A stretch of 64,000 nt of DNA from assembly GCA_017441505.1 (NCBI GenBank), contig JAFRXL010000043.1, positions 1 through 64,000 on the forward strand, given 5' to 3'. Source of the stretch: Ruminococcus sp. Lineage in GTDB: Bacteria; Bacillota; Clostridia; Oscillospirales; Ruminococcaceae. A program made the translations under genes and the position numbers. This document shows, in pieces, positions 25,551-64,000 of the stretch. Each line of letters begins with the position of its first letter. Positions within the stretch are counted from its first letter, which is position 1. The notes beneath the pieces are model-generated. The model was not told where the DNA came from. It searched no databases and saw only the letters and a program-made list of their open reading frames with translations.

Positions 25551-27187
<1,637 letters not shown>

Positions 27188-49134: not shown

Positions 49135-50220
49135 TTACATCATACCAAATAAATATGATAGACCAAGGAGTACAGCTGTACTTATTGCAGCAGTTGTAAA
49201 GAAGTATTTAATGGCAGTATTCTTATCAGCAGGAAGGTTTCCGACCATTCTGCCAGTCTGACCATTCATTGCAAATGTATATTTATTGCCTTGCCATGTT
49301 GTGTTGAGTATCCATACCGGATACAGAACATATTTTACCTTTCCGTTTTGCAGATTGATATTTTCAATCTCTGTATTTACCGTGTCATAGTTTTTGACAG
49401 TCTGCCTGAAAGCTTCTGAAACGCTTTTTTTCATTCTGTCATTGGCTCTTGGGAGACTGTCCTTATCAGATACATCGTATTTATCGGCAAGGTATCCGGA
49501 AAGATAGGCTGTTTTGAACTCTACAGCGTCCTTAAAATCAAAAGGCTCGATAGACTCCATAAGGTCGTCAGGCATTTTTGACGAGCCGTCGACAGGTACG
49601 TTTTCAAAAGCAAGAGTTCCTGCTCTTGCAACTGAATAGTAGCTTGACTCTACATAGTTATAAGAGCTGTCGCTCCACCTTTTTTTCTTGATAGCTTTGT
49701 AACGCATACTCGCATCTGCATCCGCATCAAAAAGCCATACCGGAACATAAACTCCCTTTATCTCATCAATATGATTTTCCTCACGGAAGACTTTAGGCAG
49801 GAGTTTTTTTCCGTCAAGATGCTTGTTGTAGGCTTCTTTAGCAGATTTTTTGTCGAGCTTGAACGGGATTATGAAATCTGGTTTCAGGTCGCCGGAAAAA
49901 GTTCCGGACATTACGATAGGAGCATCACAATAAGGGCAGCTCGAAGCACCTGTGGTAGCGTCAGCGATGATCTCAGCACCGCATGACTGACAGTGGTAAA
50001 CGTTCATACCGTTTGTCTCGCCGGAAGCCCATTCTCCGCCGGCAGAAGCTTCAAGCTGACCATTGGCGGCGGATGCCGCAGCGAGCTCTTCGTTATATTT
50101 CTGAACAGTTTCTACATCAAATTCAGATTCACAAAACGGACACTTCATATTCTGAGTTCCGCTGTTAAATTCAAGCTTTCCCGCACAGCACGGGCATTTG
50201 TATTCAATTAATTCAGACAT
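49135..50220 (-). CDS. Zinc-ribbon protein with C-terminal transmembrane helix (YdjG-like)
   Basis: This encodes 361 residues. The N-terminus has two zinc ribbons: ECPCCAGKL-type (YKCPCCAGKLEFN ... MKCPFCESEF) and a second HCQSCGAEIIADA ... CPYCDAP. A central globular domain (DFIIPFKLDKKSAKEAY, GVYVPVWLFDADADA) follows, ending in a transmembrane helix (TAAISTAVLLGLSYLFG). This is the layout of Bacillus YdjG. It is adjacent to the SPFH gene. Confidence 0.85.
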   Translation of the reverse strand: MSELIEYKCPCCAGKLEFNSGTQNMKCPFCESEFDVETVQKYNEELAAASAANGQLEASAGGEWASGETNGMNVYHCQSCGAEIIADATTGASSCPYCDAPIVMSGTFSGDLKPDFIIPFKLDKKSAKEAYNKHLDGKKLLPKVFREENHIDEIKGVYVPVWLFDADADASMRYKAIKKKRWSDSSYNYVESSYYSVARAGTLAFENVPVDGSSKMPDDLMESIEPFDFKDAVEFKTAYLSGYLADKYDVSDKDSLPRANDRMKKSVSEAFRQTVKNYDTVNTEIENINLQNGKVKYVLYPVWILNTTWQGNKYTFAMNGQTGRMVGNLPADKNTAIKYFFTTAAISTAVLLGLSYLFGMM

Positions 50221-50295
50221 ATTTTCACCCCTTGTGAAATATATAAAATTCGGTGCAGCTTCATCAGCCGACGAGCTGCACCGATATAAAAGTAA

Positions 50296-51729
50296 TTACT
50301 TCACAATATCAGAATCATCAAAAGGATCTCCGCACTCAGCACAGAACTTAGGAGGATTGAATGGATCCTCAGGCTCCCAACCGCACTTATCACAGCGATA
50401 GAGAGGAGCTCCTGCCGGCTTTGGCTTACCGCACTCAGCACAGAATTTACCCTTATTTATAGCACCGCATGAGCAAACCCAGCCTTCCGGAGCTGCATCA
50501 GCCGGCTTTGGTTTACCGCAGTTGTTACAGAATTTACCTGTATTATCAGCTCCGCATGAACACTTCCAGGTGCTTACAGGTGCCGGCTTTGGTTTGCCGC
50601 AGTTATTGCAGAACTTACCTGTATTAGCAGTGCCGCATTCACAGTTCCAGCTGCCTGCTGCTGCAGCCGGAGCAGGATTTCCTGCTGCATTTGGAGATGT
50701 TGTAGCACCAACAGCTCCCTGCTGTGCTCCCATATTGAAGAGACCCTGAGCGTTCATTCCGCCCATCTGATTTGCCATGCCCATACCGAATAATCCCATA
50801 GCAGCACCATTAGGATTGTTTGCAGCGTTCTGCATAGCCTGTGCCTGAGCTTCAACAAGTGTAGCAGCGGCATTAGTTGGATTTGTATTCCAGGCTCTGT
50901 CCTCAAATTCCTGGATACGCTTAGTATCTTCAGCGGAGATAGTAGCTGAATTGATAGCGACCTTCTCGATCTGAAGACCTCTTCTTTCTTTCCAGTCAGA
51001 AGTAAGCTCAGTTTCTATAGCATCCTTGACTTCTCTCTGTCTTCCGGGGAGTTCATCGTATCTTATACCGCTTGCAGAGATCTTAGCGAATGCAGGCTGG
51101 AGTGAATCAAGGAATTCACTCTTGAGCTGTCCGTCGAGCTCTGAACGGGAATAGCTGGAAGATACGTTTCCGCAGACATTTGCGTAGAAAAGTACAGGGT
51201 CTGCGATCTTGTATGAATAGATACCATTGCAGCGTACTCCGACAGTAAAGCTTCTGTTAAGATCCTGGTATGTAACTCTGAAAGGAACAGGATTCTGTGT
51301 ACCGAACTTGTTATCGAGGAGTTCCTTCATGTTGAAGTAATAGATCCTCTGATCCTTTGCTGCGTCACCGCCGTGCTTGATACGATCCCACATTTCTTTA
51401 AATGTGTTTTTCAGTCCGGCACCGAAAGTGCTGGAGAAGAAGCTTGGTGATGTACCAGTGTCATATTTATATACACCAGGAGCAGTAGCGATCTCAGTAA
51501 CAACGCCCTGATCTATCATGATCATTGCCTGTCCCTCGTGAACCACGATACCGCTTCCGTCAGAAATAACGTTTTCATTACCCTTCTTATTTGATGAATG
51601 TTTTCCGAGTTGTTTTTTTCCTCTTACTACGAGCACATCAGTTGGAATAGAATCACAAACGAAGAATTCCTCCCATGTATCTGCAAGTGTAGTGGCTGCT
51701 CCGACAAGTGCTGCCTGAATAAGACCCAT
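50296..51729 (-). CDS. SPFH/YdjI-like protein with C-terminal zinc ribbons
   Basis: This encodes 477 residues from ATG 51729. The N-terminal SPFH/'virion core' domain is visible (TDVLVVRGKKQLGKHSSN, GQAMIMIDQGVVTEI, then a coiled region with VKDAIETELTSDWKERRGLQIEKVAI). A Gly/Ala/Met-rich linker follows. Then come three zinc ribbons of the type W-x-CSCG-x-x-N-x-GKFC-x-x-CGKPKP and a fourth rubredoxin-like one at the end. It matches YdjI of the phage-shock-like pspA-ydjGHI operon in Bacillus, where it binds membranes with YdjG; a PspA gene is not seen here. Confidence 0.85.
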   Translation of the reverse strand: MGLIQAALVGAATTLADTWEEFFVCDSIPTDVLVVRGKKQLGKHSSNKKGNENVISDGSGIVVHEGQAMIMIDQGVVTEIATAPGVYKYDTGTSPSFFSSTFGAGLKNTFKEMWDRIKHGGDAAKDQRIYYFNMKELLDNKFGTQNPVPFRVTYQDLNRSFTVGVRCNGIYSYKIADPVLFYANVCGNVSSSYSRSELDGQLKSEFLDSLQPAFAKISASGIRYDELPGRQREVKDAIETELTSDWKERRGLQIEKVAINSATISAEDTKRIQEFEDRAWNTNPTNAAATLVEAQAQAMQNAANNPNGAAMGLFGMGMANQMGGMNAQGLFNMGAQQGAVGATTSPNAAGNPAPAAAAGSWNCECGTANTGKFCNNCGKPKPAPVSTWKCSCGADNTGKFCNNCGKPKPADAAPEGWVCSCGAINKGKFCAECGKPKPAGAPLYRCDKCGWEPEDPFNPPKFCAECGDPFDDSDIVK

Positions 51730-51917
51730 AACTAAGACTCCTTTCGGGATTATCCCTATAAAATGTATTGTCTGGAAATATTTTCCATGAACATTACGCC
51801 GGTCCCCGACCGACATAATGTAATTATAACATATTTCGATTAAAAATGCATTACTTTTTCGGCAATTTTTATTCTTTTATAAATATTTTTTTGTTTTAAC
51901 AATATCGACTCAGAGTA

Positions 51918-52259
51918 TTATTCCCATTCTTTCCATATTTCAGGACAGTATCCGATAGTTGCTTTTTTACCGTTGCGGACTACCGGAGTTGCGATTATCT
52001 GAGGATTTTCGATCATTTTTTCTTCCTTATCCGATTCAGTAAGGTAATTGAGCAAAGTAAGCAGTTCCTTGTCCTTAGCTTTTTCGTTTATCAGTTTATC
52101 ACAGCCTCCGACAGCCTGCTTCACGCTGTTGAACTCGCCCTTGCTCATGCCTTTTTCTTTCATATCGATGAACTGATATTTAACTCCACGTTCCTTGAAG
52201 TATCTTTCAGCTTTTTTGGTATCAAAGCATTTTTTAGTACCAAATATCTGTATATTCAT
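51918..52259 (-). CDS. ArsC/Spx-family protein
   Basis: This encodes 113 residues. The thioredoxin-like fold starts MNIQIFGTKKCFDTKKAERYF, with a single Cys in the KKCFDTKK motif and P-x-VRNGKKATIGYCPE (the cis-Pro and RNG loop). It lies between Spx-like regulators (which have C-x-x-C) and arsenate reductases (one Cys); the role cannot be decided here. It is coupled to the GH3 gene upstream by an ATGA overlap. Confidence 0.85.
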   Translation of the reverse strand: MNIQIFGTKKCFDTKKAERYFKERGVKYQFIDMKEKGMSKGEFNSVKQAVGGCDKLINEKAKDKELLTLLNYLTESDKEEKMIENPQIIATPVVRNGKKATIGYCPEIWKEWE

Positions 52260-55039
52260 CAGTTTTCCTCCTGTAAGAAGGCTATGTCGATATTGTCAAC
52301 AGCCTTATCGAGCACAAATTTTATTTTGTGCAGTTCAAGACCGTTCTGGGCAAAATATAGCCTTACAGCGGTGAAATGTGAGAATATCGGAGCTCTCTTT
52401 GTAATTCCGACTGACTCACCGTTTGTACCGTTCCATGTGTAAGTACCGGAAGCAGTTCCCATGAGGAAGAGTGTTACCGGTATCTGTGCAAGTTCGCTTG
52501 CACCGGAAGAGGCTTCTATCTCGACATTGTACCAGCCTGGTTTGCCTACTTTCAGAGCAAAGCTGTAATTTTTACCGATCTCGCTCTTAACTCCGGAGAG
52601 GTCTAATTCAAGGTCACCGTCAAGGTCGTACCAAGTAACGTCATTGTCATTGCTTTCATCTTCTGCCGGACGGTTTATGACCTCTATCTCATCAGCGTCA
52701 CCGATAAGACGCTTCATAGCTCTTGTTCTCAGAAGGAAGCTGAGTATATTTGAAGCATTTCTCTGTAATTCGGCACGGGTAAGAGTACCTGCTTCGAGTT
52801 CGGCAGCCAAAGTATCCTCATGGTCTGCACAATCAGCACATACCATATAAATATCGTTCTGAGCCTTTGCCATAGCCGCAAAATGATTTCTATCCGGCTT
52901 TCCGCCACGCTCACTGATATTTGCCCACCAGTCGGTCATAACGATTCCTACGAAGTTCCAGTTTTCTCTCAATATCGTTGTGCAGAGATCGAAATTACCG
53001 GCTGTCCAGAGTCCGTTTACTGAACCGTAAGTTGTCATTACAGAGTGAGCATTGCCGTCTCTTATTGCTATTTCAAAGCCTTTAAGGTAAATTTCTCTCA
53101 GTGCTCTTTCGGATATTACCGCATCAACAAAGTGGCGGTTAGTTTCCTGATTATTTCCGCAGAAGTGTTTTAGTGTACCTGTAACACCGTTTTTGTGGAG
53201 ACCTCTTATCTCGGCAGCAGCCATACTTCCTGTGAGGTACGGGTCTTCGGAGAAATACTCGAAATTGCGTCCGTTAAGAGGGTGTCTGTGGATATTCATT
53301 CCCGGACCAAGCAGGCAGTCGACATTATTTGCAGCCATTTCAAGTCCGACGAATTCAAAAAGTTCGCTGACAAGCTCTTTATTGAAAGTTGAAGCTATCA
53401 TTGTACCATTTGGCAGACTGAAAGCTTTAGTGCCGCAGTTAAGTCTCATACCGGAAGGACCGTCTGAGCAGCAGGCAGCAGGTATACCGTACTCCACAAG
53501 CTTATCAGTAACTCCGCCGAAAGCAGAAGCAGTACCGGCTGTTACTCTCGGACTTCCCATACCTTCGCCCCTGACTATGCTCATAAGTTCCTCATCAGAG
53601 AGCTGTGCAAGGAATTCACGCATATTATTCTTGCGTTTGTAAACGTCTGTGAACTTTATTCCCTTGTCTCCGGTAAAAGGTATAGCTTTCGGGATTTTGA
53701 ATTCACGGCGGCGTTTTTCGTCGACTTCACTGAGCGGTACTTTCTCCATAACAGGAATGATGTCATCGCCGTCTTCAACAGCCTTTATCCTCTCGTACTC
53801 AAGAACAGGAGCCATACACTGTATGCAGCGTTTATAGAGTGAAGTCTGAGGCTGTTTTACTGAGAATCCGGAAGTAGCACTTCTGACATCACTGCCGACG
53901 TAGAAAATGTCATTGCCGGCTTCATTTATCCAGCTATGAGCGAAACCTGATGCTCCGGAGTCGTCAAACGACATTATATCTGCAAGATTTATAAATATCT
54001 CTAATGACTGTGTCTCACCCGGTTCAAGCTCCTTAGTCTTTTCAAATCCGCAAAGCACTCTTGAAGGTGTACCTATCTTGCCGTTAGGAGTATTCACATA
54101 GACCTGAACTACTTCCTTACCTTTGTATGAACCGGTATTCGTAACATTTACCATTATCGTAACGCTTTTGCCGTCACCGACAGTACGGTACGGTTCAATT
54201 TTAAACGTGGTATATGAAAGTCCGAATCCGAAAGGATAGCGTACTTTATCTTTAGCAAAAGTCTCGAACCAGCGATAGCCTACATAAATATCTTCAACAT
54301 AGAAATTACGCTCTTTGTCGCCGAAATATTTTGAGGAAGGGTAGTCTGAGATATTATATGCAATTGTGTCCGGAAGCTTTCCGGAAGGAGAGACTGCACC
54401 TGTAAGTACAGCTGCTGTACCTGTTCCGCCGGTCATACCGCCCTGCCATACATAGAGTACCGAGTCAGGTGAGTACTTATCAACAAAGCTCATATCGATT
54501 ATGCCGCCGACATTGAGCAGTACTATCATTTTACCGAAGTTTTTGCGTACCTTTTCAAGCATATCGCATTCAGCCGCAGTCAGAAGATATGAGCCTTCTT
54601 CCTCACGGGCATCCATTTCTTCTCCGGCAGTTCTGCCTATTATGACTATTGCGGTATCTCCGGTTTCGGCAGCTTTCTTTACAGTTTCATCGTCAAGAGG
54701 CATTTCCTTCTGTGACCAAGGCTCACTGCCCCAGCCTGTACCGAGGTCATAAGGATTTTCCTCGTTCCATTTTTTATATACATCAAGCAGTTCTTCATTT
54801 AATTTAGCACCTGCTTCTTTAAGTCCGTCGATGATATTAGTAACTTTTGCTACGTTTACCATACCGCCTGAACCTGTACCGCTCTTATAGTAATGGAGCT
54901 GGATTCGTCCGAAAACTGAAATTGTATCATCTTTATTCAAAGGCAAAGCATTATTGTCATTTTTTAGCATTACTATACCTTCGGCAACTGTTCTTGCAGC
55001 AGCTTCGAGGTATTTTTTCCAATCAAGTGTTTTTTTCAT
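52259..55039 (-). CDS. Glycoside hydrolase family 3, circularly permuted
   Basis: This encodes 926 residues. The domain order is unusual: the GH3 C-terminal domain comes first (AARTVAEGIVMLKNDNNALPLN at the start, IIGRTAGEEMDAREEEGSY) with its fibronectin-III-like piece. The GH3 N-terminal TIM barrel follows at ~450-800 (GPGMNIHRHPLNGRNFEYFSE, GTLKHFCGNNQE). The catalytic Asp is in GIVMTDWW at residue 703, against ~230-290 in unpermuted enzymes. Permuted GH3 beta-glucosidases are known in Ruminococcus. There is no signal peptide, so it probably acts on imported cello- or other oligosaccharides. Confidence 0.9.
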   Translation of the reverse strand: MKKTLDWKKYLEAAARTVAEGIVMLKNDNNALPLNKDDTISVFGRIQLHYYKSGTGSGGMVNVAKVTNIIDGLKEAGAKLNEELLDVYKKWNEENPYDLGTGWGSEPWSQKEMPLDDETVKKAAETGDTAIVIIGRTAGEEMDAREEEGSYLLTAAECDMLEKVRKNFGKMIVLLNVGGIIDMSFVDKYSPDSVLYVWQGGMTGGTGTAAVLTGAVSPSGKLPDTIAYNISDYPSSKYFGDKERNFYVEDIYVGYRWFETFAKDKVRYPFGFGLSYTTFKIEPYRTVGDGKSVTIMVNVTNTGSYKGKEVVQVYVNTPNGKIGTPSRVLCGFEKTKELEPGETQSLEIFINLADIMSFDDSGASGFAHSWINEAGNDIFYVGSDVRSATSGFSVKQPQTSLYKRCIQCMAPVLEYERIKAVEDGDDIIPVMEKVPLSEVDEKRRREFKIPKAIPFTGDKGIKFTDVYKRKNNMREFLAQLSDEELMSIVRGEGMGSPRVTAGTASAFGGVTDKLVEYGIPAACCSDGPSGMRLNCGTKAFSLPNGTMIASTFNKELVSELFEFVGLEMAANNVDCLLGPGMNIHRHPLNGRNFEYFSEDPYLTGSMAAAEIRGLHKNGVTGTLKHFCGNNQETNRHFVDAVISERALREIYLKGFEIAIRDGNAHSVMTTYGSVNGLWTAGNFDLCTTILRENWNFVGIVMTDWWANISERGGKPDRNHFAAMAKAQNDIYMVCADCADHEDTLAAELEAGTLTRAELQRNASNILSFLLRTRAMKRLIGDADEIEVINRPAEDESNDNDVTWYDLDGDLELDLSGVKSEIGKNYSFALKVGKPGWYNVEIEASSGASELAQIPVTLFLMGTASGTYTWNGTNGESVGITKRAPIFSHFTAVRLYFAQNGLELHKIKFVLDKAVDNIDIAFLQEEN

Positions 55040-55149
55040 GAGGGTTCCTCCAATTCGGTTATATATTCTTATTATACCAAATTTTGAATTTTTTGCAAGC
55101 CTTTTTTATTAAATTTTATGGTGGCTTAAAAGTCCGTAAAAAAATAAAA

Positions 55150-55183
55150 GACCTTCAACGGTCATATCAGACCGCAGAAGGTC
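55150..55183 (-). terminator. Terminator of the RNA-repair minus-strand operon
   Basis: On the minus strand GACCTTCTGCGGTC pairs with GACCGTTGAAGGTC (one bulge), followed by TTTTATTTTTTT. It ends the vWA gene six bases downstream of its stop. Confidence 0.85.
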
Positions 55184-55188
55184 GTATT

Positions 55189-56661
55189 TTATGCCGCAGT
55201 TACGGCAGCGTATCTCTCCGAGGAGAGTATCTTGTTCATAACAGTCTCAGGCGAACATTCTCCGCCTATGACCATATCGAATACAGCAGGTGAGTAGCCG
55301 GAAACAAGTGCCGCACCGGTCTCTGAACGTGTAACGGGCACTGCATCGCATCGTGCGTTAACATTCCAGAAAACTATCTCAGGCATTATGTAACCGTAGT
55401 TGTGGTAAAGCTTTCTCATAGCCTTGAACAGCACTTCATTATTGCCGCCGATTATGCAGCTGTCAAACTGCATATCAGAGATTATGTAGAGCTTTGCAGG
55501 CATATCGCTTGCAGCAACGTTGTTCTTAACTGCGGTCTTTAATATGAGTTTGAAAACTGCCTCTAAATTGGTATTTGCTATCTCGTTGAAAGTCCGGCAG
55601 TAATTCACCTTTTCGACGATATTGCCGCCCTTTATTTCAACAAGTTGAGGAGTTTCAGAGAATGTTATGAAGTGGTTGGCGAATGCACCCTTGTTGTGCT
55701 CTGCAAAGTATATTCCCAGCGACAATGCCGCATCTATCGGACGTATACCTCCGCAGCCGCAGGTCATTGAGCCTGAACCGTCGATGACTGCAATTGCATT
55801 TTCACGCTTTGCAGCAGTCAGGTCAGGCAGAGACTTCCATGCAGCGTCAAGGGACATATTCTCCTCACGAGTTACGATACCAGCCATAGCTGCACGTACT
55901 ATCTCGTATGGATACAATCTGTCAGCATTCATTTTAGTCTCACCGCTGTGAACTCTGTTCAGGTAGTCGATATAACGCTCGTTATCGTTGCGGATGAAAG
56001 CGTTGCGGTACTTGAACATTGCACATGAAGGCTGCACCTCATACTTGAAAGTGTAGTCACGCTCACGGAGGCGGTTCTCTATGATGTCGGTATATCTGCG
56101 GAGTGCTGACAAAGTTTTTCTGTATTCACGCTCGCTCATACAGAGCAAAGCTGCGATGCGTCTGCCCATGTTTCTTGTCTCCTTTGAGGACGCATTCACT
56201 GAGGGCAGCCACTTTGCAAGCAAAGAAGCAGGCTCATTTGCATACATAGCTTCAATATCCTTGTAGAGCTGTTCGGTTATAACGTTAATTGCCTCATCCT
56301 CTACCGGAGTTCCGAGCAATACGCACAGGTCGTCATAGCGTCCGTACTCAGCAAAAAGATGTACATTTCTCTTTACAGCCTCAGGAGCTATCTTAACGAG
56401 TGCAGTTATCGCTATACGGAAGAAACGTCTTTCACCAAGACCGCCTCTTGCATCACGGGCAAAGAAAACTATCTTTATAGTCTTGTCGGGATCCTCAGCG
56501 TATGCACGGGTAACAGTATCTGCTATCTCTTCGGCTGTGGAGTTTCTCATCGCACCAGCCTTGAAGAACATGTCCAGACAAAATGACTCTGCTGAACGGT
56601 AAGCTGTGCCGCCGTTTTCAGTATATGTTAAGTTGGATTCTTTCTTTAAAAAGTTAAGCAT
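55189..56661 (-). CDS. vWA protein of the Ro60/TROVE or DUF2828 type
   Basis: This encodes 490 residues. The N-terminal ~270 residues are helical with features of the Ro60 ring family or DUF2828: AARDARGGLGERRFFRIA, LAKWLPSVNASSKETR, YRKTLSALRRYTDIIE. A von Willebrand A domain with MIDAS DGSGSM (D294) follows, ending at MSGYSPAV-like VSGYSPAVFDMVIG. Ro60 proteins bind Y RNAs and misfolded RNAs; in bacteria they are encoded beside rtcB. Position here, right behind an RNA module array and rtcB, supports an RNA-binding role. Whether it is true TROVE or DUF2828 cannot be settled by eye. Confidence 0.82.
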   Translation of the reverse strand: MLNFLKKESNLTYTENGGTAYRSAESFCLDMFFKAGAMRNSTAEEIADTVTRAYAEDPDKTIKIVFFARDARGGLGERRFFRIAITALVKIAPEAVKRNVHLFAEYGRYDDLCVLLGTPVEDEAINVITEQLYKDIEAMYANEPASLLAKWLPSVNASSKETRNMGRRIAALLCMSEREYRKTLSALRRYTDIIENRLRERDYTFKYEVQPSCAMFKYRNAFIRNDNERYIDYLNRVHSGETKMNADRLYPYEIVRAAMAGIVTREENMSLDAAWKSLPDLTAAKRENAIAVIDGSGSMTCGCGGIRPIDAALSLGIYFAEHNKGAFANHFITFSETPQLVEIKGGNIVEKVNYCRTFNEIANTNLEAVFKLILKTAVKNNVAASDMPAKLYIISDMQFDSCIIGGNNEVLFKAMRKLYHNYGYIMPEIVFWNVNARCDAVPVTRSETGAALVSGYSPAVFDMVIGGECSPETVMNKILSSERYAAVTAA

Positions 56662-56679
56662 AATGATTACCTCTCTTTC

Positions 56680-56760
56680 AAGTCAGCGTTTTTCCATACG
56701 TTTCCGCAGGGCAGGATTTGAACCTGCAAAATGCCAATTTTCTTATGCTGTTGCTGACTT
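56680..56760 (-). ncRNA. Module M5 with tRNA-like T-arm
   Basis: Inside the AAGTCAGC/GCTGACTT stem lies GCAGG - TTCAAAT - CCTGC (56711-56727), a canonical tRNA T-arm with T-loop, preceded by AAAATTGGCA, which looks like a D-loop. No acceptor or anticodon stem completes a tRNA. Bacterial Y RNAs (YrlA) carry a tRNA-mimicking domain of this sort. Confidence 0.7.
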
Positions 56761-57147
56761 ATGTTTCTGTAAGTTTTCACTTCTCGGCTCGTTTTTTCAC
56801 TCAGCCCTTGTCGCTGCCGATGGTTTCTGAGTCCCCAGAACAAATGCTGTGAGAGCCGAATACAAGACGCATATATTTCATGTCAGATGAATTTTTACCT
56901 CTGCTGTTTGCGTCTTAGCAAGGCGTTTCTTAGTTAATGAGACTAAGTTAAGAAAATGGACATTGTTACTTGCAGTAAACGCCTTATGGATTTTGGCGTA
57001 ACGCCGGACAAGGCACTTATTTATCTTGACAGGATAACGTTGATTGCTGTTTGTGCCTTAAATTATTCCCCAGCGTTACGCCGGCTCGTCACTGTATGGT
57101 TTGAATGATCAGTTCAAATAAGCTCCGCTTTTTTGCTGTAAGTGACG
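56680..57147 (-). ncRNA. Tandem array of six structured RNA modules between rtcB and vWA gene
   Basis: The gap between rtcB and the vWA gene is filled by six stem-closed modules, read on the minus strand: M0 57147-57087 (CGTCACT/AGTGACG), M1 57059-57010 (AAGGCAC/GTGCCTT), M2 56985-56920 (AAGGCGTTT/AAACGCCTT), M3 56916-56864 (AAGACGCA/TGCGTCTT), M4 56858-56785 (CGGCTC/GAGCCG), M5 56760-56680 (AAGTCAGC/GCTGACTT). The closing stems differ in sequence but stay perfectly paired. In five modules ACAGCA, and in M2 ACTGCA, lies 0-2 nt inside the 5' strand; the opposite strand is A-rich. An extra 10-bp stem (56995-57004 with 57073-57082) encloses M1. M0 starts 6 nt after rtcB stop and M5 ends 19 nt before the vWA start. 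Y RNA-like function is inferred. Confidence 0.75.
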
Positions 57148-57152
57148 AAATA

Positions 57153-58388
57153 TCAACCTTTTATAACTCCGACTGTAAACAGCTGTTTTACAGGCTCGGT
57201 AAGATCCTGCTGATTTGCCATGACATCGCTGATGTCCTTGTATGCGAATCTGGATTCCTCGGCAACATCGGACTTATTGTTCTTTGCAAGAACTACGTTC
57301 TGCTGCTTCAGGTCGACCATTACGGACTCGACTGAAAATTTGTCCATTGCTGCTGTACGTGAGTAAGCTCTGCCTGCACCGTGTGAAGAGGACATAAAGC
57401 TGTCGGCATTGCCTTTTCCACGGACTATGTAGCTGTATGAGCCCATAGCTCCCGGGATTATTCCCATGTCTCCCTCACGGGCACGTATAGCTCCCTTACG
57501 GTGTACCCACACGTTCTTTCCAAAGTGATTTTCAAGAGCAGCGTAGTTGTGGTGGCAGTTTATCTCACCTGAAAACTCAGGCAGGATACCGGTATGCTTC
57601 ACAACGTGCTTTGTGAATATTTCCTTGACCTTATTAAGCATTATCGCACGGTTCTCGTAGGCGAAATCCATACATAACTGCATCCATGCGAGGTATCTTT
57701 TTCCCTCTTCGGTGTCGACCGGCAGGAATGGCAGATTCCACTCGCCGGGTACTTGCGAGAACCACTTGTCGTTAAGCTCGTGAGCAATTTTGTTGAAGTA
57801 CTGACCGACTATATTTCCAAAGTGACGGCTGCCTGAATGGAGCATTATACCGCACATTCCTTCGTCGTCCTGCTGGAGCTCAATGAAATGATTTCCGCCG
57901 CCGAGAGTTCCTGCCTGATAGTAGCCCTCCTCGATCTGAGGGATAAGCTCCATATCGGCTTCGTAGCGGCTCATTTCTGCCTTTGCACGGTCAAGTACAT
58001 CCGAATGCTGAGCTGTTTTATAATGAGCAAAACCTGTCGGGATATTTCTAAGAATATCGCCGCATATCGTCTGCACAAGGTTTCCGCTGCCTGTTATTGT
58101 GTCACGGAGGAGCGATACCGGTATATCGGTCTGGATGTAAGCCATTCCGCAGCCAATATCAACCCCGACTGCATTTGGTATCACAATGTCCTCGCAGGCG
58201 ATAACTCCGCCGATCGGCATACCCTTTCCGGCATGAGTGTCAGGCATAAGAGCTATCCACTTATGTGCGAACAGGAGCTTTGCAAGGTGCTCCGCCTGTT
58301 CGATACATTTTTCACCGACAGCCTCAATATCTGTCTGCCATATTTTTATCGGGAGCATATTTTCATTCTTATTGTAATGTACGAACAT
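57153..58388 (-). CDS. rtcB: RNA ligase RtcB
   Basis: This encodes 411 residues from ATG 58388; a GTG at 58397 is possible. RtcB joins 2',3'-cyclic phosphate or 3'-phosphate RNA ends to 5'-OH ends with GTP and Mn2+. The metal Cys is in GVDIGCGM (C80), with GGGNHFIELQ, HSGSRHFG and the guanylylated His in SSSHGAGRAYSRTAA (H336). It opens the minus-strand RNA-repair unit, upstream of the RNA array and vWA gene. A -10-like TATACT (58440-58435) without a good -35 precedes it, suggesting an activator. RtcA is absent. Confidence 0.96.
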   Translation of the reverse strand: MFVHYNKNENMLPIKIWQTDIEAVGEKCIEQAEHLAKLLFAHKWIALMPDTHAGKGMPIGGVIACEDIVIPNAVGVDIGCGMAYIQTDIPVSLLRDTITGSGNLVQTICGDILRNIPTGFAHYKTAQHSDVLDRAKAEMSRYEADMELIPQIEEGYYQAGTLGGGNHFIELQQDDEGMCGIMLHSGSRHFGNIVGQYFNKIAHELNDKWFSQVPGEWNLPFLPVDTEEGKRYLAWMQLCMDFAYENRAIMLNKVKEIFTKHVVKHTGILPEFSGEINCHHNYAALENHFGKNVWVHRKGAIRAREGDMGIIPGAMGSYSYIVRGKGNADSFMSSSHGAGRAYSRTAAMDKFSVESVMVDLKQQNVVLAKNNKSDVAEESRFAYKDISDVMANQQDLTEPVKQLFTVGVIKG

Positions 58389-58494
58389 TTTCTTCACTTC
58401 TTTCGTTTTTATTTCTTTCCTTTAGCTTGATCTTAGTATATCACAGAAACTGGAAATAATCATATAAAATTTTCTGCACACACTCGTGACCGTA

Positions 58495-58523
58495 TTGCAA
58501 AAGTAACTTTTTTCTGTTAATAT
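58495..58523 (+). promoter_or_regulatory. Promoter of the WYL/HD operon
   Basis: TTGCAA (58495-58500), 17 bp, TAATAT (58518-58523), 27 bp before the first WYL gene. It is divergent from the rtcB start. The 162-bp gap between them would hold any shared operator; I could not pick out a clear repeat. Confidence 0.65.
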
Positions 58524-58550
58524 ATAAATGTAGAAAGGAAGTGGAAGAGC

Positions 58551-59825
58551 ATGGCAGGATTTTCCGAGCTTATAAAAAATTTTGATAAGACCCGTGATTA
58601 TGTCCGTGATTTTTTCATATACGGATGTAAAGTAAGAAGTGATTTTGAACGCAAGAGCATCCGCACATACGGCGATGAAAAAAGACGTGTAGAAAGCTGG
58701 ATGGGAGATTATATGCGTTATGACGACTCTGTACACGGAAGAAGTGTATCAATTTCGGTGGACAGCGGTCACATTCCGGAAAATCCGCTGTATAATGCCT
58801 ATTACTCCAAAAGCTTTACCGACAACGACATCCGTTTGCACTTCCTTATAACAGATGTATTGAACGACGGACAGAGCAGGACTCTGAAAGAGATAACAGA
58901 TACTCTGAATACAGAATATGCCCAGCTTTTTGATGAACAGACTGTCCGCAACAAACTGAGGGAGTATGTTGAAGAGGGGATAATTATTTCAGAAAAAAAC
59001 GGTAAGACTCTTTATTATAAACTTTCAGAAGACAGAGCTGACGACTATATAAACAGATATACCGGACTTGATGATGCATTGAAGTTCTTCTCAGAAACTC
59101 AGCACTTTGGTATTATTGGCAACAGCATACTCAAAATGCTCGGACTGAAAAACGACCTCTTTTTCATCAAGCATAACTATATGATACATACTCTTGAAGA
59201 TATACTGATACCTGAGATAATTTCTGCTATAAATGAAAAACGCCATATTTCGTTCCGCACATTCTCAGCAAAAAGGAGTAATGATGGCGACTCTTCAGGT
59301 ACTGAAAATCAGGTAGTGCCGATGAAGATACTTGTTTCAGTGCAGACCGGAAGACGCTATCTTGCGGCGTATATCCCGGGACTAAGAAGATTTTCTGCAT
59401 TCAGACTGGACTACATGAAAACAGTCAAAAAAGGTGATACTTGCGAGCAGTATGATGAAGTGAAAGCTAAATTTGACCGCAATATGGAGCATTGTTTCGG
59501 AGTTTCATTTGGTATGCGGCGTGAGACAGGCACGGTAACTCCCATGAAGATAACATTTTTCGCCGACGAGGAAAAAGAGCACTATATCGTTGAGAGGCTT
59601 GAACGTGAGAAACGCTGCTGTAAGCTTGAAAAGTCCGGAGAAAAACTTTACACACTGACTGCTGATGTTTTTGACCCTAATGAGCTTATGCACTGGGCTA
59701 AAACTTTTATCGGCAGGATAGTCCGTATCGAGGGCGGCTCTGATACAGTGAGAAAGCGTTTTTATTGCGATATAGCGAGAATGAACAGAATGTACGGCGG
59801 TGATGAAGATGAACATATTCAGTGA
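58551..59825 (+). CDS. WYL-domain transcriptional regulator 1
   Basis: This encodes 424 residues. A long N-terminal region (~1-100) is followed by a winged-HTH (~105-165: RLHFLITDVLNDGQSRTLKEI, then TVRNKLREYVEEGIIISEKNGKTLYYKL). The WYL domain lies at ~225-300 (NEKRHISFRTFSAKRSND, SVQTGRRYLAAYIPGLRRFSAFRLD) with a C-terminal WCX extension. WYL proteins sense nucleic acids or nucleotides and control repair and defence genes. It is divergent from rtcB and probably regulates it. Confidence 0.9.
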   Translation: MAGFSELIKNFDKTRDYVRDFFIYGCKVRSDFERKSIRTYGDEKRRVESWMGDYMRYDDSVHGRSVSISVDSGHIPENPLYNAYYSKSFTDNDIRLHFLITDVLNDGQSRTLKEITDTLNTEYAQLFDEQTVRNKLREYVEEGIIISEKNGKTLYYKLSEDRADDYINRYTGLDDALKFFSETQHFGIIGNSILKMLGLKNDLFFIKHNYMIHTLEDILIPEIISAINEKRHISFRTFSAKRSNDGDSSGTENQVVPMKILVSVQTGRRYLAAYIPGLRRFSAFRLDYMKTVKKGDTCEQYDEVKAKFDRNMEHCFGVSFGMRRETGTVTPMKITFFADEEKEHYIVERLEREKRCCKLEKSGEKLYTLTADVFDPNELMHWAKTFIGRIVRIEGGSDTVRKRFYCDIARMNRMYGGDEDEHIQ

Positions 59826-60804
59826 AATATACGGTGCATATTTCCGGACAGCGGCTAAACTGCTCGAAAATGAAATTACTGACGAAAAAACAGTTCGTGA
59901 GACGGTTCAGCGTGAGGGATTTCGTGAATCGGTTCTTTTTCTGCCTCAGAAGCTCATTCCCAACGGTGAGGACTGGGGACTTTTCAGCCGTACTCCGGAC
60001 GGTAAACTAAAACGCATAACCAAAGCATCACCGGTAAGTGTGCTGACAAAATTGCAGGAAATGTGGCTGAAAGCAAAGCTCTCCGACCCGAGAATAAGGC
60101 TTTTTATAGACGATAAAACGCTCTCAGAGCTTAACGACAGATTAGCGGACGTTTCTCCGCTTTATAAAAATGAGCATTTCAGATTTACTGACCGGTTTTC
60201 TGACAGCGATGACTTTTACAACGAGAACTATATAAAGAATTTTCGCATTGCTCTTGATGCGGTAAAAAAGAGGAAAATAGTATACATCGAATTTGTTTCC
60301 GGACATGGTAAAAAAATGAGCGGTAAGTTTGTTATGCTGAAAATGGAGTACTCGCCAAAGAACGATAAATTCCGTGCATACTGCTATTTGCTGCGGCATG
60401 ATAAGATAAGAAACAGCGGTATAATCAACATAGGACGAATAACAAAGATAGTCGACACCGGACGTATTTTCCGCACTCCTGTGTCTATGGAAGATTATTT
60501 TTCAAGCCGCAAATGCAGTTCGCCGGCGGTAATAAAAGTTACAACAGAACGCAACGGTGTTGAGCGGTTTATGCTGGAATTTGCTTCATATGAGAAGCAC
60601 ACTGTCCGTGATCTTGAGACTGGTCAATATAGGGTCGAGCTATGGTACGATGAGCAGGATGAGACAGAGCTGCTCATACGCCTGCTGAGCTTTGGTCCGG
60701 TGATAGAGATACTTGGTCCGCAGAGTTTGAGGGAACAAGCAAAATTACGCATAAAAATGCAGGCTGAACTTATTGCAGAGTATGGAGATGAAAAAGATGT
60801 CTGA
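59809..60804 (+). CDS. WYL-domain protein 2
   Basis: This encodes 331 residues from ATG 59809 (GGCGG eight bases upstream; ATG 59803 is also possible). No canonical HTH is visible at the N-terminus. The WYL-like core is AVKKRKIVYIEFVSGHGKK ... AYCYLLRHDKIRNSGIINIGRITKIV, with a C-terminal WCX-like segment. It overlaps the end of the first WYL gene. It may be the partner subunit of a WYL heteromer. Confidence 0.85.
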   Translation: MNIFSEIYGAYFRTAAKLLENEITDEKTVRETVQREGFRESVLFLPQKLIPNGEDWGLFSRTPDGKLKRITKASPVSVLTKLQEMWLKAKLSDPRIRLFIDDKTLSELNDRLADVSPLYKNEHFRFTDRFSDSDDFYNENYIKNFRIALDAVKKRKIVYIEFVSGHGKKMSGKFVMLKMEYSPKNDKFRAYCYLLRHDKIRNSGIINIGRITKIVDTGRIFRTPVSMEDYFSSRKCSSPAVIKVTTERNGVERFMLEFASYEKHTVRDLETGQYRVELWYDEQDETELLIRLLSFGPVIEILGPQSLREQAKLRIKMQAELIAEYGDEKDV

Positions 60805-61564
60805 ACTTGAAAATGTACTGCTGAACTACGAAAAGCCATCGGTTTATTTTGAACAGATGCAGCGTATGGAGCAGTTGGATAGTCTGTTTCCGGAGCTGAA
60901 AGCACTTATCGGGATACCTCAGAATCGTTTTCATCACCATGAGGGTGATGCGTGGACTCATACGATGATGGTGCTCGATGAAGCTGCGAAACGCCGTAAG
61001 ATAGTGAAGGAGCCGTATGGCTTCATGCTTTCGGCACTTTGCCATGATTTGGGCAAGGCGGTGTGTACGACAGTTTCAGATGACGGTACAGTGCACTCGT
61101 ATGAGCATGAAACTATCGGACTGCCAATGGTCCGGACTTTTATGGAGCGTATCACCGATAACATAAAACTGACAGAATACGTACTTAACATGACTGAACT
61201 CCACATGGAGCCTAATATAATGGCACACGCAAAGTCAAAACTGAAGAAGACAAACAGGCTTTTTGATTCGGCTATCGAACCATTTGACCTGATACAGCTG
61301 GCAGTCTGTGACGGACTTGGCAAGCTGCCGAAATGTGATGATACAGAGGAATTTCTCATGCAGAGGTACGAGATGTATAAGAAGATAATGGAGCGTCCGT
61401 ATCTGACTGAACAAGATCTTATTGGAGCAGGTTTGAAGTCTGCTGAGAGTTTATCAGAGATACTCACATATGCTCATAAACTCAGGCTTGCAGGTCTCAG
61501 CAAAGAAGATCAGCTCAGACAAAGTCTTGCTTATGCGAGAAGTGTTCTGAAAATTAAAATATGA
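60797..61564 (+). CDS. HD-domain protein resembling the HD module of CCA-adding enzymes
   Basis: This encodes 255 residues from ATG 60797 (GGAG nine bases upstream; overlaps the WYL2 stop by 8 bases). The HD signature is H55 (in WTHTMMVLDEAAKRR), H83-D84 (CHDLGK) and a distal D in LAVCDGLGK. The N-terminus (IGIPQNRFHHHEGDAWTH) resembles the HD domain of bacterial CCA tRNA nucleotidyltransferases. That domain has 2',3'-cyclic phosphodiesterase and phosphatase activity in E. coli Cca. In this operon it could heal RNA ends for RtcB; this is inferred. Confidence 0.85.
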   Translation: MSELENVLLNYEKPSVYFEQMQRMEQLDSLFPELKALIGIPQNRFHHHEGDAWTHTMMVLDEAAKRRKIVKEPYGFMLSALCHDLGKAVCTTVSDDGTVHSYEHETIGLPMVRTFMERITDNIKLTEYVLNMTELHMEPNIMAHAKSKLKKTNRLFDSAIEPFDLIQLAVCDGLGKLPKCDDTEEFLMQRYEMYKKIMERPYLTEQDLIGAGLKSAESLSEILTYAHKLRLAGLSKEDQLRQSLAYARSVLKIKI

Positions 61565-61680
61565 ATATTTAAGCTAAATACAAAGGGGTTATTTATATTA
61601 AAAATCCTGTTTAATTAATAATAGACAAATATGGTTTAATGTGGTATAATTAATATTACAATAAAAAATTGGTAAAATTT

Positions 61681-61841
61681 ACGTCGGTCAAGCCGAGGGA
61701 AGATATACGAACGGTACGTACAGCGTTGCTTTGCTCGCTGTACTGCTTCTTAGGAAGGGCTCTGCCCTTCCTCGCACACCTTTCCGCCAAAGGGTTGGAA
61801 ACCCTTTGGAATCCCTTTTTTGCCGACTTCGTCGTTTTATA
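61681..61841 (-). repeat. Interspersed structured repeat, copy 3 (short form, inverted)
   Basis: This is the family of 7796-8016, here on the minus strand: ACGACGAAGTCGGC at the right end, CCAAAGGG ... CCCTTTGG, central stem AGGAAGGGC/GCCCTTCCT, GTACAGCG ... CGCTGTAC, and CCTCGGCTTGACCGACG at the left. It lies between the HD gene and the TetM-like gene, 35 bp before the latter's ATG. Confidence 0.87.
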
Positions 61842-61876
61842 GATGTTAATAATATATTGAACGGAGGTAACGAATT

Positions 61877-64000
61877 ATGAGCGATGCAAAAAAACGTATA
61901 ACTATAGGTATCACTGCCCACGTTGACTCCGGAAAGACTACGCTTGCGGAGGCGATGCTCTACAAAAGCGGAAAAATAAGAAAGCTCGGACGAGTTGATA
62001 ACGGCGATTCTGCTCTTGATACGGACTCTATTGAGCGTAACAGGGGAATTACTATTTTTGCTCATCAGGCTGAATTTGACATTGATGATACGCATATATC
62101 TCTTCTTGATACTCCGGGACATATCGATTTTTCCGCTGAAACCGAACGAACAATGAGGGTGCTTGATTATGCTGTACTCGTCATAAGCGGTACTGACGGG
62201 ATACAAAGTCACACAATGACACTCTGGAAGCTCCTAAGCAGATATGAAGTGCCGGTTTTTATTTTTATAAATAAAATGGACCTTATTGGTGCTGACAGAA
62301 AATCAGTTCTTGAAAAAATTCAGAACAGACTCTCAGATATGTGTACTGATTTCAGCGGAACAGAGGCTCAGATAATTGAAAACACTGCTATGTGCAGTGA
62401 CGAATATATGGAGAAGTATCTATCTGAAGGCACTTTGAGTGACGATGATATTGTCAAAGCGATAAAACAGCGTCAGGTTTTTCCGTGCTGTTTCGGCTCT
62501 GCACTGAAAATGGACGGTATCGATCGGTTTATGGAGCTTATCGGACGTTATACCACTGAGCCTGAAAGAACAAGCGAGTTCGGGGCAATGGTCTATAAGA
62601 TCTCATACGACCCGAAAGGAAGCCGTCTTACACATTTAAAAGTAGTTAATGGTGAGCTGAAAATGCGTGCTGAACTTACATATACCGATCAGGACGGAAA
62701 TGAGATCACAGGCAAAGTCAGCTCGCTCAGGATATATTCGGGTGAAAAATTCAGGAACGCTGAAAGTGCAACAGCAGGAGAGGTGTGTGCTGTGACCGGA
62801 CTGCCTTCGACATTTGCAGGTCAGGGACTCGGCAGCATAAGGAATTCAGATAGGGCTCTACTCGAACCTGTTATGACATATAATGTTGCGATACCGGATG
62901 AAATCAATATTCACGAAGCACTTAAAGATATGCGTCGCCTTGAAGATGAGGACCCTCAGCTGCATATACTCTGGAACGAGCAGCTGAGAGAGATACATAT
63001 ACAGCTGATGGGAGCTGTACAACTTGAAGTTCTTACAGAGATGATAAAGCAGCGTTTTGGTTATAAAGTTGAATTCCTTGACGGTGCTATTGCTTACAAA
63101 GAGACTATTAAGAATATAGTTGAGGGAGTAGGGCACTACGAGCCGCTCAAACACTATGCGGAGGTTCATGTTCTTCTTGAACCTCTTGAACGTGGCAGCG
63201 GAGTAAAAATCGACACTATCGTACCGGAAGATGAACTTGACCGCAACTGGCAGAGACTTATACTCACTCACTTTGAAGAAAAAGAACATATCGGAGTACT
63301 TACAGGTTCGCCTATAACTGATATAAAAATTACACTTGCTGCCGGAAAAGCTCACGTAAAGCATACTGAGGGAGGAGATTTCCGTCAGGCCACCTACAGG
63401 GCTATACGTCAGGGACTTCGCAATGCGGAGAGCGTATTGCTCGAACCGTATTATGATTATGAGATAGAGATACCCTCCGACTGTGTAGGCAGGGTGATCT
63501 CCGATCTGCAGCATATGTCGGCAGAGTTCAGCTCACCTGAGATAACAGGGGATATGGCAGTTATTTCCGGTACAGCTCCGGTATCTGAGATGAACGGTTA
63601 TCAGCAGGAACTTATAAGCTTTACAAAGGGACGTGGCAGACTAAGCTGCTCGGTTGGCGGATACTGTGAGTGCCATGACGCTGAAAGAGTCATAGAGCAG
63701 ATAGGTTATGACTGTGACGGCGATACCGAAAACAGTGCGGACTCCATATTTTGCTCGCACGGAGCAGGCTATATGGTCAAATGGAATGAAGTTCCGGACT
63801 ATATGCATCTTCCTTCATGTCTGAAAGACGATGATGAGCATGAGGATGAGGAAGTCAGGATAGGCAAAGCAAAGCGGTTTATAGAAAATGCAGTCTCAGA
63901 AAAAGAGCTCATGGAGATTTTTGAGCGGACATATGGCAAAATCAATGTCGACCCACGAAGAGCTTTCAAAAAGAGCAAGGCTGTGTCCATAGAAAATAAG
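61877..64000 (+). CDS. TetM/TetO-like EF-G-family GTPase, partial
   Basis: The gene runs off the window end after 708 codons. GTPase motifs: AHVDSGKTTL (~15), RGITI switch I, DTPGHIDFSAE (~75), NKMDLIG (~130). EF-G-like domains II-V follow (LGSIRNSDRALLEP, QLMGAVQLEV, KHTEGGDFRQATYRAIRQG). It resembles tetracycline ribosomal-protection proteins, but the C-terminal extension (CHDAERVIEQIGYDC, KAKRFIENAVSEKEL) beyond domain V is unusual. Drug resistance cannot be assumed. GGAGG precedes ATG 61877. Confidence 0.87.
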   Translation, partial: MSDAKKRITIGITAHVDSGKTTLAEAMLYKSGKIRKLGRVDNGDSALDTDSIERNRGITIFAHQAEFDIDDTHISLLDTPGHIDFSAETERTMRVLDYAVLVISGTDGIQSHTMTLWKLLSRYEVPVFIFINKMDLIGADRKSVLEKIQNRLSDMCTDFSGTEAQIIENTAMCSDEYMEKYLSEGTLSDDDIVKAIKQRQVFPCCFGSALKMDGIDRFMELIGRYTTEPERTSEFGAMVYKISYDPKGSRLTHLKVVNGELKMRAELTYTDQDGNEITGKVSSLRIYSGEKFRNAESATAGEVCAVTGLPSTFAGQGLGSIRNSDRALLEPVMTYNVAIPDEINIHEALKDMRRLEDEDPQLHILWNEQLREIHIQLMGAVQLEVLTEMIKQRFGYKVEFLDGAIAYKETIKNIVEGVGHYEPLKHYAEVHVLLEPLERGSGVKIDTIVPEDELDRNWQRLILTHFEEKEHIGVLTGSPITDIKITLAAGKAHVKHTEGGDFRQATYRAIRQGLRNAESVLLEPYYDYEIEIPSDCVGRVISDLQHMSAEFSSPEITGDMAVISGTAPVSEMNGYQQELISFTKGRGRLSCSVGGYCECHDAERVIEQIGYDCDGDTENSADSIFCSHGAGYMVKWNEVPDYMHLPSCLKDDDEHEDEEVRIGKAKRFIENAVSEKELMEIFERTYGKINVDPRRAFKKSKAVSIENK

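Follow-up and report, generated by a model that had tools for sequence, protein, structure and literature searches.

In the Ruminococcus DNA analysed here (a stretch of 64,000 nucleotides, hereafter the window), a gene for the RNA ligase RtcB is separated from a gene for a vWA protein by a 0.49-kb gap, and the locus raises the question of what this gap encodes and what its product might do beside these two proteins. The initial annotation had read the gap as six repeated structured-RNA domains next to rtcB and, more specifically, as a Y RNA-like array.

Six framed modules in the rtcB-vWA gap

rtcB, the gap and the vWA gene follow one another in this order on the minus strand, and the six consecutive modules that had been proposed, M1 to M6, are all present there (Table 1). 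They share one frame, in which a closing stem is followed after 0-2 nt by the motif ACAGCA, a variable insert and the stem partner. The stems pair as had been described, although their length is 8-10 bp by module coordinates, with outer U-G pairs counted, rather than the 6-9 bp given before. In five of the six modules the 5' arm is followed within 0-2 nt by ACAGCA, and in M3 by ACTGCA, as already noted, whereas the A-rich 3' strand ascribed to every module is clear in M2, M5 and M6 only. The view that the whole gap is made of modules also needs amending, since a further helix of 13 bp encloses M2. When the 64-kb window was searched for stem plus motif, nine sites were found on the minus strand, six of them in the gap, and two on the plus strand. 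Promoter-like (8 versus 6.7 shuffled) and terminator-like sites (2 versus 3.8) in the region were at the level of shuffles.

Table 1. Positions of the modules and of the neighbouring genes within the window.
Feature	Position	Strand	Description
vWA / DUF2828+DUF7788 protein	55189..56661	-	Pfam DUF7788 1.7e-45, DUF2828 4.4e-34; phrog_850 'RNA-binding protein' 3.1e-134
M6	56679..56761	-	closing stem TAAGTCAGC/GCTGACTTG; ACAGCA; T arm GCAGG-TTCAAAT-CCTGC, then sealed hairpin with GAAA loop
M5	56783..56860	-	closing stem TTCGGCTC/GAGCCGAG; ACAGCA; insert CTCAG...CTGAG with inner hairpin; A-rich 3' side
M4	56863..56917	-	closing stem TAAGACGCA/TGCGTCTTG; ACAGCA; small insert without clear tRNA feature
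M3	56919..56986	-	closing stem TAAGGCGTTT/AAACGCCTTG; ACTGCA; hairpin CTTAGT-CTCATTA-ACTAAG
Outer helix, 13 bp	56994..57082	-	57082-57070 with 57007-56994; encloses M2; from gap MFE and sequence
M2	57009..57060	-	closing stem TAAGGCAC/GTGCCTTG; ACAGCA; anticodon stem-loop TTATC-CTGTCAA-GATAA (Asp GUC)
M1	57085..57149	-	closing stem TTCGTCACT/AGTGACGAG; ACAGCA; hairpin TTTGAA-CTGATCA-TTCAAA
rtcB, RNA ligase	57153..58397	-	upstream of array, same strand; Pfam RtcB PF01139 4.4e-107
Two divergent genes (WYL-like; WCX)	58551..60804	+	WYL/WCX model matches

Each module, folded alone, formed its closing stem, and the number of shuffles per 200 that folded at least as well was 0 for M1, 10 for M2, 5 for M3, 2 for M4, 15 for M5 and 2 for M6. 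In the MFE structure of the whole gap, the closing stems of M1, M2, M4 and M5 held with mean pair probabilities of 0.89-0.95, whereas those of M3 and M6 gave way to long-range pairing (0.09 and 0.10).

The inserts differ from module to module. The M1 hairpin has a 7-nt loop with GAU at the anticodon position but C37, making it Ile-like in a looser sense; it was read from the sequence and is absent from the MFE structure of M1 alone. In other loci (numbered with L throughout), M1-like stems hold a T arm instead (GGGTTCAACTCCC; L003, L016 and L018), and the loops of M2 relatives read CTGTCAC (Asp), CTTTCAC (Glu) or CTTCCAA (Gly). The 7-nt loop of M3 carries CAU but U37, again a looser, Met-like case, while M3-like stems elsewhere carry CTGTTAA (Asn, L016) or CTTTTAA (Lys, L018). 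M6, whose insert type also occurs in L002, reads as a reduced permuted tRNA mimic without a D arm, and the inserts of M4 and M5 copy no RNA that can be named. ARAGORN found no tRNA in the window's array, which has no full cloverleaf with free acceptor ends.

The M5-type insert recurs in related loci as GGGG, a short stem, a 2-3 nt bulge, an inner hairpin and an A-rich tail. Mimicry of rRNA by M5 and other inserts was considered and rejected: in comparisons with E. coli 16S, 23S and 5S rRNA and tRNA-Glu, the matches listed went no further than words of 9-15 bases, including genuine T-arm and anticodon words in the tRNA-Glu comparison.

The frame in bacterial and phage genomes

A contig scan with the window's vWA protein yielded 102 relatives, from which 80 loci were kept; the relatives in the loci compared, from Ruminococcus to phages, are 37-95% identical to the window protein, and the frame recurs beside them in Ruminococcus, Lachnospiraceae and many phages. 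Across 81 loci (the 80 plus the window), module density upstream of the vWA gene was 4.66/kb (281 sites in 60.3 kb), compared with 57 and 44 sites per strand in 615.5 kb elsewhere in these loci (0.09 and 0.07/kb), a few of the 57 being true modules further upstream, as in L067 and L043. With no prior stem requirement, an exact 7-bp partner accompanied 265 of 362 upstream ACAGCA motifs and 26 of 585 elsewhere; against shuffled downstream sequence the figure was 1.3%. A looser set comprised 288 modules in 80 of the 81 loci, with 113 different closing arms (last 7 nt) and, by the module finder used here, up to seven modules per bacterial locus (median four), in the form AAGACAC-N-ACAGCA...GTGTCTTG and variants. 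The array in the gap is thereby confirmed as real and more than chance, and both the proposal of repeated structured-RNA domains next to rtcB and the expectation that stems and ACAGCA are kept in related loci are borne out by this conservation with the neighbouring protein.

Covariation, to which the initial annotation had looked for support, contributes little. An M2-type alignment of 24 of 64 modules (23 plus the window's, hand-chosen, five of them from more distant loci) gave a consensus fold of the closing stem alone, in which a single sequence had one pair with both bases changed. Since the anticodon stem is misaligned in it, covariation there is weak evidence, and we relied instead on frame and insert counts compared with shuffles.

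Relatives of the vWA protein are widespread among phages. IMG/VR held 568 contigs with a relative, of which 80 (37-44% identical) were kept, INPHARED had relatives in 672 of 50,697 records and PLSDB in 4 of 72,556; the names among the phage matches listed were hypothetical, RNA-binding, DUF2828 or Ro-like ('Ro-like RNA binding protein'). Once duplicate viral loci had been removed, 44 of the 64 distinct ones had a framed module in the 600 nt before the vWA gene (1.90/kb compared with 0.076/kb in the control), and the remaining 20 had no framed module upstream. Motif variants of the form NCAGC occur in some viral loci (L134, L140 and L155), and phage modules were found upstream or downstream of the vWA gene. 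Ten of 14 annotated records hold the frame near the vWA gene, namely Felix O1-like tootiki, Listeria P100, Enterococcus EfV12-phi1, mycobacteriophage Kahlid, a Staphylococcus phage, Campylobacter NCTC12673, Bacillus FADO, Synechococcus B23, a gut phage contig and a Subdoligranulum plasmid, the last two with the frame 1.4-1.8 kb upstream. The frame is doubtful in a Jeotgalibacillus plasmid, and no module is recognisable beside the protein in Vibrio nt-1, Aeromonas Ah1 and Serratia BF.

The frame can also be used without the protein. A protein-blind scan for it returned 83 stretches in viral contigs, and of the 80 that were fetched (11 on contigs already known from the protein search), 46 contained a vWA relative, 45 of them on the same strand and at a median distance of 228 nt; the other 34 had no relative in the stored stretch.

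Two further observations concern individual phage loci. Ordinary-looking tRNA genes stand, by eye, directly before the vWA gene in L162 and L155, the former without a framed module. In Listeria phage P100 (L196:456-1007), a ROOL-like RNA scoring 86 bits (cut-off 99.1) lies upstream of tRNA-Met and the Ro-like gene. Published RNA-seq of the related phage CKA15 was considered as support for module expression and set aside: the most-read region in the part of the report available, 26,236-26,727, maps by coordinates to this ROOL-like RNA, where the P100 record annotates three small ORFs (PMC12282133).

tRNA-like inserts and their anticodons

Beyond what the initial annotation had described, the frame extends to many phages and the inserts are pieces of tRNAs, above all anticodon stem-loops with changing anticodons. 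Judging by sequence, many inserts across the family are tRNA mimics, and they come as bare anticodon stem-loops with authentic 7-nt loops, as a T arm plus sealed acceptor hairpin, as direct-order tRNAs and as circularly permuted tRNAs. Among the 80 loci, ARAGORN reported tRNA-like inserts within closing stems at L031, L065, L067, L071, L074 and L075. Rfam, run on nine of the 80, agreed for L065, L067 and L071 and for one of the two inserts in L074.

To quantify the enrichment, 187 non-redundant bacterial cargos, from which overlapping modules and near-duplicate inserts had been dropped, were compared with 200 shuffles. Anticodon-like 7-nt loops, excluding T loops, were present in 46 cargos on stems of at least 4 bp (shuffled mean 9.2, maximum 17) and in 36 on stems of at least 5 bp (3.4, maximum 9); an earlier count of 63 of 187 includes T loops. 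Strict CTNNNAN loops were found in 32 (1.7, maximum 7) and T-loop hairpins in 33 (0.4, maximum 3). The loop of the best hairpin measured 7 nt in 58 cases, T loops included, compared with 17.8 after shuffling, and the next size, 6 nt, was seen in 21 compared with 17.6. In addition, hairpin loops in ten of the 187 cargos were identical to one of the own genome's 26 anticodon-loop types (0.27 and at most 2 in 200 shuffles), while reversed and complemented control loops gave 1 and 0 matches, respectively. In the redundant count of 288 modules, 67 showed just an anticodon-like loop, 51 just a T arm, 9 the two together and 161 neither.

The phage inserts gave a similar result by the same kinds of count. 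Cargos found through the frame alone had anticodon-like loops in 25 of 67 (4.8, maximum 11, in 200 shuffles), or 21 of 67 on stems of at least 5 bp (1.9, maximum 7). In the 113 cargos of viral vWA loci and annotated records, from which phage modules without a 3' G had been dropped, 24 anticodon-like loops were counted on stems of at least 4 bp (7.3, maximum 17), 18 on stems of at least 5 bp (2.9, maximum 7), and T-loop hairpins in 19 (0.14, maximum 1). T arms were often followed by a closed acceptor: in bacteria and phages together, 38 of 71 T-arm cargos had a sealed hairpin no more than 5 nt after the arm (shuffled 13.5, maximum 20). A loose D-arm pattern flagged 13 of the 71, some of them short M6-type inserts in which the D arm is not genuine. 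Full permuted tRNAs were recognised by eye in L030, L036, L047, L061, L168, L195, L197 (two), L198 and L203.

The anticodons themselves vary. A strict bacterial tally of 44 distinct stem-loops gave Asp 14, Phe 8 (seven GAA, one AAA), Asn 6, Gly 4, Glu 3, Lys 3, Ser 2, Met 2, Leu 1 and Arg 1, and 32 distinct phage loops gave Lys UUU 9, Asn GUU 4, Ile 3, Ser UGA 3, Lys CUU 2 and eleven others once each. The change takes place on constant stems: tcata/tatga carries CTGTTAA (Asn), CTTTTAA (Lys) or CTGCTAA (Ser), and ttatc/gataa carries CTGTCAA or CTGTCAC (Asp), CTTTCAC (Glu) or CTTCCAA (Gly), with C32, U33 and A37 kept in the swapped loops. The same loops, among others, appear in 64 modules chosen solely by the 5' arm AAGGYRC plus ACAGCA. 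Where a bacterial locus has two CTNNNAN loops, the two anticodons differ in 11 of 11 cases, which, some of these loci being close relatives, represent fewer than 11 independent ones. In four viral loci (L144, L155, L157 and L174), loops read by eye as CGTTTAA or CGGTTAA combine Lys- or Asn-like anticodons with G at position 33.

Such inserts might be no more than decayed tRNA genes captured by repeats and devoid of function, and some phage copies do lie in or near tRNA clusters. Against this, stems, ACAGCA and loops recur beside proteins 37-95% identical to the window's, from Ruminococcus to phages, and C32, U33 and A37 persist through the swaps, so that we regard functionless decay as scarcely credible. 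A role for the modules in translation is also unlikely, because the tRNA part is kept inside the closing stem.

Separate from the modules, L033:7250-7640, L039:6850-7040 and L041:7480-7660 contain two tandem tRNA-like domains about 1.4-2.2 kb after the vWA gene (twice in L033), which ARAGORN calls as a 73-nt 'tRNA-Ser GCT' and which by eye have a promoter-like start and a terminator-like end.

Protein neighbours, known relatives and possible roles

The vWA protein is the presumed partner of the frame. The comparison with a Ro60-like operon in the initial annotation finds an echo in the phage relatives named 'RNA-binding' or 'Ro-like', whereas the protein itself is of the DUF2828+DUF7788 type with no Pfam TROVE match. 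Alignment by hhalign to six TROVE proteins was colinear over 355 columns at a probability of 4.5% and an E value of 0.009, and a profile search of the PDB gave no match at E<=1. A canonical TROVE gene is absent from the own genome and present in 2 of 197 family genomes and 4 of 291 class genomes; the vWA protein is itself sporadic, occurring in 18 of 197 family and 8 of 398 phylum genomes, the own genome counted in both. To our knowledge, these vWA relatives have no settled RNA partner and no established purpose. In the available portion of a study of P100-like phages, D. radiodurans Rsr is the protein to which HHPred relates the homologue CKA15_055 most closely, and 20 peptides of CKA15_055 were recovered among purified-particle proteins (PMC12282133).

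rtcB is a frequent neighbour. Of the 80 bacterial loci, 47 contain it: rtcB precedes the vWA gene in 36, follows it in 10 and does both in one. Where it lies upstream, the rtcB-vWA gap spans 421 to 1323 nt. It was missing from the fetched stretch in the other 33, several of which are contig ends, and from all 80 viral loci and 11 of the 14 annotated records. In L062, L064, L066, L067, L071, L074, L075, L077, L078 and L080 the vWA gene is instead followed by a distinct RtcB type that shares 27-36% identity with the window's; in L064, the one tested, it is the phage-type PHROG 1075.

What could link a presumed RNA-binding protein, an RNA ligase and a set of changing anticodons? One explanation, to which we attach about even weight, is that the modules are RNP-bound baits for anticodon nucleases and might be re-ligated by RtcB. 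The gap encodes a string of RNA cassettes, in each of which an exchangeable insert sits in a constant frame of closing stem plus ACAGCA; the vWA protein, presumed to be Ro60-like, would hold them by the frame, and the inserts would be displayed to anticodon nucleases, whether toxins or the defence enzymes met by phages. RtcB joins cyclic-phosphate (or 3'-phosphate) and 5'-OH ends, and a cut bait, remaining joined through its closing stem, could be resealed by it. Arrays with different anticodons would cover several nucleases, and anticodons would be exchanged as nucleases change. In its broader form, which we put forward more tentatively, DUF2828-vWA proteins would carry an interchangeable library of RNA baits in a fixed frame, with the anticodons of attacked tRNAs rewritten in an arms race and cut baits re-sealed by RtcB in bacteria. 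Given the bacterial, viral and annotated stretches in which rtcB is missing, resealing by a neighbouring RtcB would not be general.

The same neighbourhood admits other explanations. RtcB might close excised modules into small circular RNAs, their tRNA likeness serving processing by tRNA enzymes; the closing stem would bring the ends together, and RtcB is found in 47 of the 80 bacterial loci, yet its absence from all 80 viral stretches and the unexplained change of anticodons make this very unlikely. Alternatively, the modules might act within an rtcB-vWA transcript as a sensor, in which a nuclease cutting the anticodon-like loops would alter mRNA stability or translation and so report tRNA damage. 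Their position between two same-strand genes, with promoter- and terminator-like sites at shuffle level, would suit a sensor, as would the Salmonella operon, which in the part of its description available is activated when tRNA fragments act through RtcR (PMC7790460). Phage modules, however, are found on either side of the vWA gene, mostly in stretches without rtcB, and a single switch has no need of different anticodons in one array, which leaves a sensor improbable.

The closest known RNA is YrlA. Y RNA-like tRNA mimics beside rtcB are already known, and the proposal of a Y RNA-like array holds in part. The window modules themselves have no Rfam match: a search of positions 50000-64000 with 4227 families at E<=5 gave none in the gap and one weak match outside it. 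A scan with the YrlA model (RF02553) of this part of the window and 18 loci gave five sub-threshold matches, in which permuted modules matched the whole model in the bacterial loci L061 (53.8 bits) and L047 (50.3 bits) and in an Enterococcus phage (L197, 45.2 bits), with weaker matches at 34.3 (a second in L197) and 28.4 bits. Because YrlA also matches weakly across ordinary tandem tRNAs in L074 (32.4 and 24.4 bits), only the three highest carry weight, and no module scanned reached the gathering score of 69 bits. rRNA models gave no match in 13 genomes (the own genome plus 12 relatives), and the tmRNA model gave eight sub-threshold matches in the own genome, mostly at listed tRNA sites.

In layout the likeness is closer. 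A YrlA-type basal stem that joins the two ends of the RNA is found in all six modules as single folds and in the 265 of 362 homologous motifs mentioned above. An A-rich 3' side is clear in some modules, a minority of related modules follow the Rfam alignment in placing a T arm before a sealed acceptor and a D arm, and rtcB and a presumed Ro60-type protein are found alongside. Within the window, T and sealed acceptor arms of this type occur in M6 alone, without a D arm. Unlike YrlA, the modules score below the cut-off, number up to seven per locus and accompany a DUF2828 rather than a TROVE protein, and anticodon stem-loops are common and changing in them, whereas YrlA, in the portion of its description available, copies D, T and acceptor arms (PMC8394870). 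The array can thus be described as YrlA-like in layout and not a YrlA member by score. The Salmonella-type rsr-yrlBA-rtcBA operon, as far as its available description goes, likewise unites RtcB, a vWA protein and a noncoding tRNA-like RNA (PMC7790460), and the present locus differs from it in having DUF2828 instead of TROVE, six modules and divergent neighbours that match WYL/WCX models.

These likenesses favour the main rival to the bait explanation, in which the modules would be Y RNA scaffolds: the frame would bind the vWA protein, taken to be Ro60-like, and the tRNA-like insert would dock it to an enzyme that recognises tRNAs, such as PNPase, RtcB or a modification or processing enzyme. 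An array would then yield a set of RNPs whose partners in RNA decay or repair differ, the inserts being docking handles and not bait. In the available part of the work on YrlA, the basal stem is used for Rsr and the tRNA-like domain for PNPase (PMC8394870), and the sub-threshold whole-model matches in L061, L047 and L197, the YrlA order of arms and the adjoining RtcB are consistent with a scaffold. Many inserts, however, are only anticodon stem-loops whose anticodon changes on a kept stem, in contrast to the D, T and acceptor arms described for YrlA, and a docking handle has no obvious need for changing anticodons; we consider a scaffold role less likely than bait, though clearly better placed than a sensor.

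Two groups of phage systems bear on the bait explanation. In the available portions of the sources, AriB, the PARIS nuclease, cuts tRNA-Lys(UUU), Thr(UGU) and Asn(GUU) (PMC12409363), and phage tRNAs act against such nucleases, T5 tRNAs countering PARIS, phage tRNA-Lys countering PrrC and tRNA-Tyr countering retron Eco7 (PMC12409363, PMC11555353). Like these, the modules are small phage RNAs with the anticodon arm of attacked tRNAs, some near tRNA clusters; unlike these, which are real tRNAs, they keep the tRNA part inside a closing stem. The Ro-like RNPs of mycobacteriophages and P100-like Listeria phages involve the same protein family, and Y RNAs have been proposed for phage CKA15 and cited for mycobacteriophages; the frame, the arrays and the anticodon loops are features of the modules here and set them apart from those RNPs as described in the part of the source available (PMC12282133). 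A conserved frame with exchangeable anticodon stem-loops and such arrays with DUF2828 appear to be new, as we found no description of either in the open-access literature, preprints excluded.

Several results weigh on either side of the modules being bait. The commonest phage anticodons, Lys UUU and Asn GUU, coincide with AriB targets (PMC12409363), a coincidence that concerns few loops and was noticed after the fact; Thr(UGU), the other prime target of AriB, is not among the phage loops listed, and the commonest bacterial anticodon, Asp GUC, has no matching nuclease in the sources consulted. By the rule used here, 7-nt hairpins of both the anticodon-like and the T type are lacking in 161 of 288 bacterial modules, and in the window M1 and M3 have an unusual base 37, nothing is recognised in M4 and M5, and M3 and M6 refold in the whole gap. 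The protein also occurs without a recognisable module in 3 of 14 annotated records, and 20 of 64 viral loci lack a framed one. For YrlA, the available part of the study by Hughes et al. raises competitive inhibition of an anticodon nuclease as a possibility, and also reports that YrlA fragments were not detected and judges YrlA to be no substrate of the nuclease (PMC7790460).

If the modules are baits, they would constitute an RNA-based anti-nuclease library and give a concrete role to tRNA mimicry by Y RNA-like RNAs; their anticodons would predict which nuclease each module meets, and the frame finds candidate RNAs directly. If they are not, the changing anticodons still need another explanation.

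Finally, the two divergent genes beyond rtcB are possible regulators of the cluster, to judge from their WYL/WCX model matches. When five proteins were compared with models of defence families, only the two WYL-like neighbours matched PADLOC models, the best being CRISPR-associated WYL.
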